From the NCBI GenBank assembly GCA_024072375.1, contig CP099617.1, forward strand, positions 3,603,001-3,667,000: a stretch of 64,000 nt of DNA. Direction: 5' to 3'. Origin of the DNA: Sphingomonadaceae bacterium OTU29LAMAA1. GTDB lineage: Bacteria; Pseudomonadota; Alphaproteobacteria; Sphingomonadales; Sphingomonadaceae. The notes under the pieces are model-generated. The model ran no database searches, was not told the DNA's origin, and worked only from the letters and a program-made list of their open reading frames with translations. Shown here one piece after another: positions 10,187-20,696 of this stretch (position 1 is the first letter of the stretch; every line of letters begins with the position of its first letter). Made by a program: the position numbers and the translations under genes.

Positions 10187-10196
10187 GTCTTTGCAA

Positions 10197-10298
10197 GCCC
10201 CTCCCCTTCAGGGGAGGGGTTGGGGTGGGGCATGTCCGCGGGCGATGGTCTCGGTGAGACCTCCCCCACCCCCTGCCCCTCCCCTGAAGGGGAGGGGT
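10197..10298. repeat. Palindromic repeat, CCCTTCAGGGGAGGGG family
   Basis: An element of about 100 bp between gcvH and gcvPA. It is bounded by cccctccccttcaggggagg at the left and its inverse (cctgaaggggaggggt) at the right, with an inner hairpin GGTCTCGGTGAGACC. The same arrangement is found inside the rnr coding sequence at 19106-19189. In one reading frame both copies encode the peptide [17 protein letters not shown]. Here it lies in the intercistronic gap of the operon. The ribosome binding site of gcvPA (AGGGAG, 10301) starts directly after it. Confidence 0.9.
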
Positions 10299-10312
10299 TT
10301 AGGGAGTATATG

Positions 10313-16601: not shown

Positions 16602-16883
16602 AATGCCCTCGTCATCCCGCGTAGGCGGGGATGCCACCGTACCAATGCCCTCGTCATCCCCGCGTAGGCGGGGATCCATATCGGCTGGCGTCGAGGATAG
16701 AGCCGGTTGGTCACTGACTATGGATCCCCGCCTACGCGGGGATGACGATGTTGGTGGATGTACGTCACTCCTTACCTCTTCGTCGTCCCGAACGCCGGGA
16801 CCCATGGTTAGCGAGCGGCTGCCGATGTGCGCCGTCGCGAATCCAGCCACTCCATGGGTCCCGGCGTTCGCCGGGATGACGGG
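16602..16883. repeat. Cluster of five palindromic repeats filling the proS-trhO gap
   Basis: The 392 bp between proS and trhO contain no gene that I can support. Copies of the GTCATCCCCGCGTAGGCGGGGATCC element lie at 16610-16632 and 16651-16677 (direct) and 16721-16746 (inverted). An inverted pair of the related GTC(A/G)TCCCGAACGCCGGGACCCATGG element lies at 16781-16804 and 16852-16881. The first two copies are directly repeated with about 20 bp between them. The genes on both sides converge, so the cluster may serve as a bidirectional transcription stop. Confidence 0.85.
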
Positions 16884-17910: not shown

Positions 17911-20250
17911 ATGGAGCATGACGGAACGCGGTCGGCTCCCTATCTCTCATCCGTGCATAAGAAAACCAGACCCGGCCTGCCAACGCAGGCGCAGATCCTC
18001 GACTTCATCGCGACCTCCGACGTGCCCGCCGGCAAACGCGAGATCGCCAAGGCGTTCGGCCTGACCGCGCAGGAGAAGATTGCGCTGAAGGCGTTGCTGA
18101 AGGACATGGCCGACGAAGGCCTGATCGATAGCGCCCCCGGCCGCGCCTTCCACAAGATGGGCGGGCTGCCCAAGGTGACGGTGCTGCGCGTCGCCGATGT
18201 CGATGACGGCGGCAACGTGTGGGCGGTGCCGGAACGGTGGGAGGCGGACACGCCGCCGCCGCGCCTGCGGGTGCGCGAGCGGAAGGGGAGCACGCTGGGG
18301 ATCGGCGAGCGCATCCTAGCGCGGACCGAGGAAGCGGGCGCGGGCTGGATCGCGCATCCGATGAAGGTGCTGGCGAAGGCGTCGGAGCAGGTGCTCGGCG
18401 TGCTGCGGCGCGAGGGAGACCGGTTCTGGCTGACCGGGGTCGAGAAGAAGGACCGGCGCGAGTTCCCGGTGTCCGACGTTGGCGAGGCGCAAGCGGGCGA
18501 TCTCGTGATGACCGAAATCACCGGGCGGCCCCCGCGGCTATCGGTGCGGGTGGTGCAGCGGTTGGGCGATCCGTTCGCGCCGCGCAGCTTCTCGCTGATC
18601 GCGATCCACAAGCTCGGCATTCCCGACGTGTTTTCGGGTGAGGCGCTCGACGAGGCGGAGCGGGTGTCGCGGCTGCCGTTGGGCGACGATCGCGAAGACC
18701 TGACGCATCTGCCGATCGTCGCGATCGATCCGGTCGATGCGCGCGACCACGACGATGCGGTGTGGGCGGCGCCCGACGATGACCCCGGCAACCCCGGCGG
18801 GTGGAAGGCGGTGGTCGCGATCGCGGATGTCAGCTTCTACGTGCGACCCGGTTCGGAGATCGATCGCGAGGCGCGGCGGCGGGGCAATTCGGTGTATTTT
18901 CCCGATCGCGTCGTACCGATGCTGCCGGAGATCCTGTCCGCCGAGGTGTGTTCGCTGAAGGAAGGGGAGGATCGCGCGGCGCTGGTGTGCCATTTGCAGG
19001 TGGGGAAGTCGGGCAAGCTGGAGAGCTGGCGGTTTTCCCGGGCGCGGGTGCGGATCGCGGCGAACCTGGCGTATGAAGATGCGCAGGCAATGATCGACGG
19101 CAAGCCCATTCCCTTCAGGGGAGGGGACGCGGGCGTCGGTCTCGGTGAGACGTCCCCCACCCCCACCCCCTCTCCTGAAGGGGAGGGGCTTATCCTGGGG
19201 TCGCTCCGCCACCTTTGGGACTGCTGGCGCGCGCTGGCGAAGGCGCGGGATGCGCGCGAGCCGCTCGACCTCGATCTGCCCGAACGGCGCGTCGTGCTCG
19301 ACGAGAAGGGGCGGATCATGTCGGTCGCGCCGCGCGAGCGGCTCGATGCGCACCGGTTGATCGAGGATTACATGATCGCCGCCAACGTCGCCGCTGCCAA
19401 GGCGCTGGAGGCGAAGAAGGCGCCAGTGATGTACCGCGTGCACGAACCGCCAAGCCGTGAAAAGCTGGTCGCGTTGAAGGACTATCTCGAGACTTTCGAT
19501 GTCGCTTTTGCACTCGGGCAGGTGATCCGTCCGGCGACATTCAACCATGTGCTGAACCGCGTCGGTGACGCCGATTTCCGCCCGCAGGTAATGGAGCAGG
19601 TGCTGCGCACGCAGACCCAGGCTTATTACGCGCCGGCCAACCAAGGGCATTTCGGGCTGTCGCTGGGCTCCTACGCGCATTTCACCTCGCCGATCCGGCG
19701 TTATGCCGATCTCGTCGTCCACCGCTCGCTGGTCGCGGCCTACAAGCTCGGGCCGGGTGAGCTGACCAGGACGGATGCCGAGGCGATCGAGCAGATCGGC
19801 ACCACCATCAGCGGCCTCGAACGCCGCGCGATGGAGGCGGAGCGCGATACGATCGATCGCTATGTCGCGGCGTTCCTGTCGGAAAAGGTCGGCGAGACGG
19901 TGTCGGCGCGGATCACGGGGGTGCAGAATTACGGCTTCTTCGCCACGGTGGAGGGAATCGGCGGCGACGGGCTGATGCCGGTCCGCGATCTGGGCGGCGA
20001 ATATTTCCGCTTCGACGAGGCGGCGCGCAAGCTGATCGGCGAGCAGACCGGCGAGGAATATGCGCTCGGCCAGCGCATCGACCTGAGGCTGGCGGAGGCG
20101 AACCCCGTGTCGGGCGCGTTGCGCTTCGAACTGCCGGGCGGCAAGGGGGCGGCACCGGGCGCGCGGCATGTCGGCTCGGGGCGCAAGGATCGCGTGATCA
20201 AGCATCGCGGGCGGCCGCAGAACATCCGCCATCAGGGCAAGCGGCGGTGA
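17911..20250 (+). CDS. rnr: Ribonuclease R with an in-frame palindromic repeat insertion
   Basis: A 779-residue 3-to-5 exoribonuclease. An N-terminal winged-helix region is followed by cold-shock domains, the RNB catalytic domain and a C-terminal S1 domain. The RNB domain shows the metal-binding DPVDARDHDDAV and the conserved VAIADVSFYV. It continues with FPDRVVPMLPEILS and FTSPIRRYADLVVHR, and the S1 start is VSARITGVQNYGFFA. Residues about 400-427 (DNA 19106-19189) are encoded by an intergenic-type repeat element and are not expected in homologues. An alternative start is GTG 17953 (HKKTRPGLPTQ follows), which better matches the usual N-terminus; no strong SD decides it. Confidence 0.93.
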   Translation: MEHDGTRSAPYLSSVHKKTRPGLPTQAQILDFIATSDVPAGKREIAKAFGLTAQEKIALKALLKDMADEGLIDSAPGRAFHKMGGLPKVTVLRVADVDDGGNVWAVPERWEADTPPPRLRVRERKGSTLGIGERILARTEEAGAGWIAHPMKVLAKASEQVLGVLRREGDRFWLTGVEKKDRREFPVSDVGEAQAGDLVMTEITGRPPRLSVRVVQRLGDPFAPRSFSLIAIHKLGIPDVFSGEALDEAERVSRLPLGDDREDLTHLPIVAIDPVDARDHDDAVWAAPDDDPGNPGGWKAVVAIADVSFYVRPGSEIDREARRRGNSVYFPDRVVPMLPEILSAEVCSLKEGEDRAALVCHLQVGKSGKLESWRFSRARVRIAANLAYEDAQAMIDGKPIPFRGGDAGVGLGETSPTPTPSPEGEGLILGSLRHLWDCWRALAKARDAREPLDLDLPERRVVLDEKGRIMSVAPRERLDAHRLIEDYMIAANVAAAKALEAKKAPVMYRVHEPPSREKLVALKDYLETFDVAFALGQVIRPATFNHVLNRVGDADFRPQVMEQVLRTQTQAYYAPANQGHFGLSLGSYAHFTSPIRRYADLVVHRSLVAAYKLGPGELTRTDAEAIEQIGTTISGLERRAMEAERDTIDRYVAAFLSEKVGETVSARITGVQNYGFFATVEGIGGDGLMPVRDLGGEYFRFDEAARKLIGEQTGEEYALGQRIDLRLAEANPVSGALRFELPGGKGAAPGARHVGSGRKDRVIKHRGRPQNIRHQGKRR
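19106..19189. repeat. Palindromic repeat of the CCCTTCAGGGGAGGGG family inside rnr
   Basis: An 84 bp element with inverted ends (cattcccttcaggggagggg and ctcctgaaggggaggggc) and the inner hairpin GGTCTCGGTGAGAC. Its architecture is the same as the intergenic copy at 10197-10298. It is a multiple of three, keeps the rnr frame open, and encodes [17 protein letters not shown] plus TPSPEGEG. It sits between the segment ending AQAMIDGKP and the segment LRHLWDCWRALAKARDAREP of the RNB domain, where RNase R homologues have a short variable loop. Confidence 0.9.
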
Positions 20251-20573
20251 CGCGTCTGGTGCGTGTCGAGCCGCAGGGTACGGTGCGCGACCGTTATCTG
20301 GTGCACGGGACGATCGCGCCGCGTTTCGTCGACGCGCACGCGGTGACGGCGAGCGATGCGATCGATTTCGCGCCGGCCGATGAGCGCGAGGCGAAGGCGT
20401 TCGCGGCGATGGTCTCCGACGGGTCGATCCGGGTGGCTGTGCCGGGACGGTTTTGGTTCGACATGGATGCGTATGAGGCGGCTGCGGCAGGACGACGGGC
20501 GAAGCGGGTGCCGGTGATGCTGATCGTGACGCTGTTGATCGCGGTGGGGGCGGTGATGTTCTACCGCGGATGA
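20247..20573 (+). CDS. Small protein with C-terminal membrane segment, unknown
   Basis: A 108-residue protein that starts with GTG at 20247, overlapping the rnr stop by 4 bp (GTGA), so it is probably translated by coupling. Residues 1-85 are soluble and mixed in charge (LVHGTIAPRFVDAHAVTASD). The last 20 residues form one membrane segment (VPVMLIVTLLIAVGAVMFYRG). I do not recognise the family. A C-terminal anchor and rnr coupling suggest a membrane-tethered partner, but this is inference only. Confidence 0.65.
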   Translation: MTRLVRVEPQGTVRDRYLVHGTIAPRFVDAHAVTASDAIDFAPADEREAKAFAAMVSDGSIRVAVPGRFWFDMDAYEAAAAGRRAKRVPVMLIVTLLIAVGAVMFYRG

Positions 20574-20575
20574 AA

Positions 20576-20686
20576 TCCTCCCCGGCGAGGTGAGTCGAGG
20601 GGGCGTTTCCGCGAGTCACCACGTTCATGGTGGACCTCCCCCTCCGCCACGGCTTCGCCGCGCCACCTCCCTCTGGCGGGGAAGGA
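20576..20686. repeat. Compound palindromic repeat (CCTCCCC...GGCGGGGAAGGA family)
   Basis: An intergenic element between the small rnr-coupled gene and the convergent oxidoreductase gene. It contains cacgttcatggtg, then cctccccctccgccacggct and cgccgcgccacctccctctg, with ends that pair (TCCTCCCCGGCGAGG and CTGGCGGGGAAGGA). It is related to 14823-14972 and 34585-34686. It probably acts as a bidirectional 3-prime hairpin. Confidence 0.75.
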
Positions 20687-20696
20687 ATTGCAAGAC

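Follow-up and report, generated by a model that had tools for sequence, protein, structure and literature searches.

The best-known examples of translated palindromic repeats are those of the intracellular genera Rickettsia and Wolbachia, where weak selection offers an easy explanation for their presence. The palindromic elements of Rickettsia (RPEs) and Wolbachia are approximately 100-150 bp long, are located both in intergenic regions and in frame within conserved genes, and add tens of residues to their host proteins without breaking them (PMC2229807, PMC10969869, PMC4224334). REPs of the GTAG and CGTC super-families bear the respective tag at one end of a 5-13 bp stem, the GTAG type having a RAYT transposase. 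As dimers they also occur inside open reading frames (ORFs), among them tRNA synthetase genes from two sphingomonads, S. alaskensis and E. litoralis, and different REPs occupy about the same site of recB in two Xanthomonas (PMC3733652). The CIR elements of Caulobacter are reported to be strictly intergenic and to contain conserved GANTC sites (PMC2229807, PMC10969869).

Here, we describe a palindromic repeat that is translated within the RNase R gene of Sphingomonadaceae bacterium OTU29LAMAA1, and compare it with the corresponding region of related bacteria. The window – the whole stretch of DNA analysed – is 64,000 nucleotides long and spans positions 3,603,001 to 3,667,000 of contig CP099617.1. 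The rnr gene (17911..20250, + strand) is a single open frame encoding 779 aa with Pfam RNB and CSD2 domains. Its product is RNase R, having an RNB domain (residues 261-610; E 6e-93), the catalytic Asp motif and an RNase R fold; the motifs DARDHDDA and SPIRRYAD are both found, and the closest solved fold to its model by Foldseek is that of E. coli RNase R (5xgu; E 9e-59).

The repeat, which we refer to as type B, corresponds to residues 398-427 (19102..19191, + strand) and lies within the RNB domain of an ORF that is open throughout, in agreement with an earlier note on this DNA. It is an inverted repeat of about 90 bp, with 32-nt arms at 19102..19133 (left, + strand) and 19160..19191 (right, - strand) that are 81% complementary, and it includes the inner hairpin GGTCTCGGTGAGAC reported in that note, at 19138..19151, which is common to other copies. 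The note had described an 84 bp element with inverted ends; the ends and the palindrome were both found, although the element is slightly longer and its right end is imperfect. The sequence CCCTTCAGGGGAGGGG forms the left end exactly (19111-19126), and the right end (19167-19182, minus strand) has one mismatch to this 16-mer. Seven near-matches to the 16-mer are present in the window against 0.7 expected, a number reached in no shuffle, and the RNA fold of the repeat region has an energy of -61.7 kcal/mol (z -2.75). The frame is kept, as proposed, but relative to the empty loop of the nearest relative the net gain is 24 codons (72 bp) and not 84 bp, because the native loop partly differs as well.

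The whole genome (4.13 Mb in two contigs, scored 100% complete) was searched for the element with a cut-off of E < 0.002. It is present at about 19 separate places, the rnr copy among them, and mostly between genes. Most copies are 90-110 bp in length, the element ends are AAGCCCCTCCCC...GGGGAGGGGCTT, and most of the copies listed contain the inner hairpin or its complement. Three copies fall within long ORFs whose GC3 is of coding character on either side, namely rnr and two genes named by their Pfam matches as encoding valyl-tRNA synthetase (valS) and the glycyl-tRNA synthetase beta subunit (glyS). Bacterial genomes are mostly coding, and we counted the finding of only three ORF copies among about 19 in favor of a purging of coding insertions. 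Each copy is open in one to four of the six frames, so read-through is possible without being automatic. An intergenic copy between gcvH and gcvPA (10195..10300, + strand) has 36-nt arms that are 86% complementary and matches the rnr copy at 90% identity across query positions 18-78 (C2:3613237-3613297); one of its frames gives a 17-residue peptide comparable to that of RNase R, as the note had stated.

No transposition was observed, and a search of the genome for PF01797, the RAYT-type transposase, found no mobilising enzyme; the control search was positive in E. coli. No target-site duplication was definable, the native loops and spacers having diverged, and the orthologous intergenic sites compared in three relatives hold other elements, remnants or unrelated sequence. 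Two further palindromic regions were seen near rnr: a cluster of CGTCATCCC...GGGATCCA palindromes at window positions 16609-16880, with perfect arms of 19-30 nt and similar to CGTC-tagged REP dimers, and a degenerate type A-like palindrome, TCCTCCCCGGCGAGG...CTCTGGCGGGGAAGGA, at 20573-20690, downstream of rnr.

RNase R genes were found by search in 30 genomes and combined with 80 named records, using one genome per species; this gave 109 readable RNase R loops and 101 distinct Sphingomonas-group proteins. The loop between YExAQ and LWxCW has 16-26 residues in 58 of the 101, and up to 75 in the remainder. The nearest relative, Sphingomonas sp. UBA978 (L061), has an RNase R that is 90% identical and an 18-residue loop, AAIDGTLSHPLTDTVLKP, from which the repeat is missing; sliding identity gave no clear signal that L061 acquired this empty loop by recent segment transfer. 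Alignment of the homologues revealed no common conserved peptide, with the nearest lacking the insert and others having unrelated peptides. The suggestion that RNase R tolerates a mobile-looking intergenic repeat is thus supported, the repeat being both multi-copy and variable among homologues. The Asp motif and SPIRRY could both be located at 23 loci from other alphaproteobacterial genera and families, where they are 290-295 residues apart, and this constant spacing indicates that loop expansion belongs to the Sphingomonas group.

Judged by eye from their sequences, the loop inserts belong to at least seven types of repeat. In addition to type B, which is that of the window, these include type A (LPGTGRGTSEAGGGG...PPPRAGE), type C (SPPVLREGSGEGG...PPTPPVDGRGD, near type H), type D (VRAEPVEARD...PFDKLRANG), type E (...STSLDTNG), type F (SSRTWSGIH...PWTPEQVRRDE) and type G (QRKLGPQ...PSFRWD). 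When inserts were used as concatenated queries, representatives of types A, D, E, F and H matched many other places in their own genomes, as did those of types B, C, E and G; the insert of L130 has the weakest support as a repeat, its sole match in the rest of the genome, among those listed, being a short one. Longer loops of the SSPCSMP and ERPLL types look native, and were left out of the repeats in the tree.

The 101 aligned RNase R sequences contain 52 insertions that are at least 10 residues long, and 42 of these (native-looking long loops included) share a single one of the 754 core positions. Under a uniform spread this has a probability of about 1e-108, although shared ancestry inflates the figure and a tree is the fairer test. 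On an RNase R tree constructed using FastTree with the loop removed, presence of an insert requires about 20 changes, of which well-supported branches dictate 16; when all 12 insert states are considered, the number is 29. Six more of the 52 insertions are at another site, shortly before the RNB domain. This permissive site, before REDLR, was observed in the RNase R of L053, L054, L125 and L134, and in L054 a GVSTALDTNGG repeat is located there as well.

Comparison across genomes shows the rnr insert to be one case of a genus-wide pattern that takes in GlyS and ValS. Of the 29 genomes of the genus in which GlyS was readable, 24 have a repeat-like insert in its first loop, after RWLVEEGI, and a second GlyS loop holds other inserts. 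The ValS loop following WPFATLG has an insert in 7 of 30 genomes, the native loop being 11-12 residues long. All three proteins are affected in the genome of the window, and GlyS twice: glyS (L171; C2:3944993-3947473) has a type B insert after RWLVEEGIV and, following KKEGYS, another that is composite, and valS (L201 / L016; C2:736966-739743) has a related palindromic insert near WPFATLGW. The valS gene of another genome (L207, genome G023) has an apparent frameshift exactly within its repeat insert, reflecting either a sequencing error or a truly split essential enzyme. This frameshift, and the difficulty of sequencing G-rich palindromes, are what could be said for the inserts being artefacts of assembly or annotation, but we find such an origin scarcely credible: all 109 RNase R loops are in open frames and come from many independent projects, the window's own assembly consists of two contigs and is scored complete, and there is coding composition on both sides of the insert.

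An AlphaFold model of RNase R using 60 diverse sequences has a mean pLDDT of 88, and supersedes one using 30 close sequences (pLDDT 49). Residues 401-420 are its one internal segment of low confidence, with pLDDT values of 50-61 against about 87-98 on either side, and residues 404-409 are the sole internal stretch of the model below 50. This dip sits between helices at 388-395 and 422-449, and the insert is predicted to be a disordered surface loop joining these two helices of the RNB domain. The repeat had been placed in the catalytic domain in the earlier note, which is correct with respect to the RNB domain, but the loop is outside of the catalytic core. Four rnr copies (L034, L066, L067 and L076) are closely related and share a type C insert. 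In their flanks pN/pS is 0.02-0.05, a sign of strong constraint; within the insert pN is 0.09-0.17 and pS 0.15-0.27, and because these are close, the amino acid sequence of the insert is nearly unconstrained. However, pS is lower in the insert than in the flanks, where pure neutrality predicts otherwise, and this counts against the insert being purely neutral filler. Homogenisation with other copies, or a constraint on the nucleic acid, may account for it.

We strongly doubt that the insert is a selected functional part, such as a protein linker or interaction loop, or an mRNA hairpin that controls expression of rnr, glyS and valS. Different species have unrelated peptides and pN about equals pS, the segment is predicted to be disordered, and it is absent from many close relatives. 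Inserts do recur at the same loops of core RNA enzymes, loop 1 of GlyS is seldom empty, and the synonymous sites of the insert vary less than those of its flanks, all of which would suit a function. Type A coding inserts also keep their hairpin pairing while their sequence changes, but this may merely mirror the family from which each copy originated. In another reading, which we regard as unlikely, the loops are preferred or maintained docking sites that acquire palindromic repeats anew because the coding-strand hairpin is kept, either through recombination directed at the genome's repeats or through selection on an mRNA hairpin in rnr, glyS and valS. If this were so, a by-product would be a loop in each protein that is constantly exchanged and has no fixed sequence.

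There are several signs of turnover among the inserts. Close relatives in the type C clade either have the full insert or miss 81 bp of it, in frame, and the 81-bp difference between L072 and L034 fits a deletion between two CCCTCCCGT repeats. In L087, another palindrome is nested within the type B element; this nested unit, AGCGTCGGG...CCCGACGCT (peptide GRSGSQPDLN), is present in the L087 loop, in an intergenic copy in the genome of the window (L028) and in the second insert of the same genome's GlyS, which suggests an element that targets other repeats. The spacers are variable too. Between gcvH and gcvPA (orthologues L299, L300 and L301), two species have type B, whereas a third has another palindrome and the fourth a solo hairpin. 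At the spacer of locus L004 in the window's genome, the forms seen across species are B, a solo hairpin, A and A-like.

Alternatively, the loop could have received a palindrome in one or a few ancient insertions and been rewritten in place since then, by recombination or gene conversion with whichever repeat family is abundant in a lineage, with deletions giving rise to the short loops. The changes of type at orthologous spacers that keep an element would be in accord with this, as would the reduced synonymous divergence of the inserts and the downstream flank that insert-bearing loops often share, and which is unlike HPLTETALKP of the empty loop. Types D, E, F and G are unrelated, however, and are without arm sequence through which to recombine with B or A, and the empty loops are scattered over the tree, such that many losses are needed. 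We consider conversion of ancient insertions to be a serious possibility that nonetheless falls short of an even chance. Several insert-bearing loops differ from the empty loop downstream as well, making segment replacement indistinguishable from simple insertion.

We consider it highly probable that a genomic palindromic repeat of approximately 100 bp landed in rnr and is read in frame as a disordered surface loop. Under this explanation, repeats would insert regardless of reading frame, or be swapped by recombination between hairpin arms; most coding insertions would be lethal and lost, and in-frame insertions would survive solely at the few loops that tolerate extra residues, as in rnr, glyS and valS. 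The surviving inserts would then be replaced repeatedly by the current repeat families of a species, acquire further elements within them and become shorter through deletion. The peptide encoded by the repeat is most likely functionless in itself. Core enzymes of translation and RNA decay in a free-living genus carry translated repeats that are near-fixed, with unrelated repeats captured independently at the same loop. Such captures are natural replicates for the conversion of repeat DNA into protein and mark out where RNase R, GlyS and ValS have loops that tolerate insertions. The repeat-derived stretches can distort sphingomonad alignments, trees and gene calls.

The element shares features with several described systems. 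Like the Caulobacter CIRs, which are about 110 bp long, it is a two-armed palindrome in the Alphaproteobacteria, but identity with these is rejected, as GANTC is found in 7 of 19 copies and not in that of rnr, and intragenic copies exist; the density of GANTC is 2.9 per kb in the copies and 1.5 per kb in the window. The MITEs of enterobacteria and Neisseria (ERIC/RU-1 and Correia) are similarly short repeats with open frames that become fused into ORFs, although their sequences and hosts are different and a loop hotspot is not described for them in the text consulted (PMC2229807). The type F and G inserts resemble CGTC-tagged REP dimers, whereas the element of the window has neither a GTAG nor a CGTC tag and is a palindrome of about 100 bp with GGGGAGGGG hairpin ends; with no PF01797 match in the genome either, a RAYT-driven REP is not supported. 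Recurrence at the same site is also far more extensive here than for the intragenic REPs reported previously (PMC3733652).

The likeness to RPEs proposed in the earlier note, which extends to the Wolbachia elements, is taken here as one of behavior: the element is palindromic and multi-copy, with most of its copies (at about 19 places) being 90-110 bp, and it is in frame in rnr, valS and glyS as well as intergenic. Intragenic palindromes outside of Rickettsia have, however, already been described (PMC3733652, PMC2229807). Within openly readable papers, the pattern in Sphingomonas is not reported beyond PMC3733652. The novelty lies in the families of element, in rnr being a host gene, and in how widely insertions recur at one site. 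Relative to RPEs, no sequence relation is apparent, the host is free-living and of high GC, many unrelated families are found at the same loop of the same gene, and the GlyS insert is present in most congeners.
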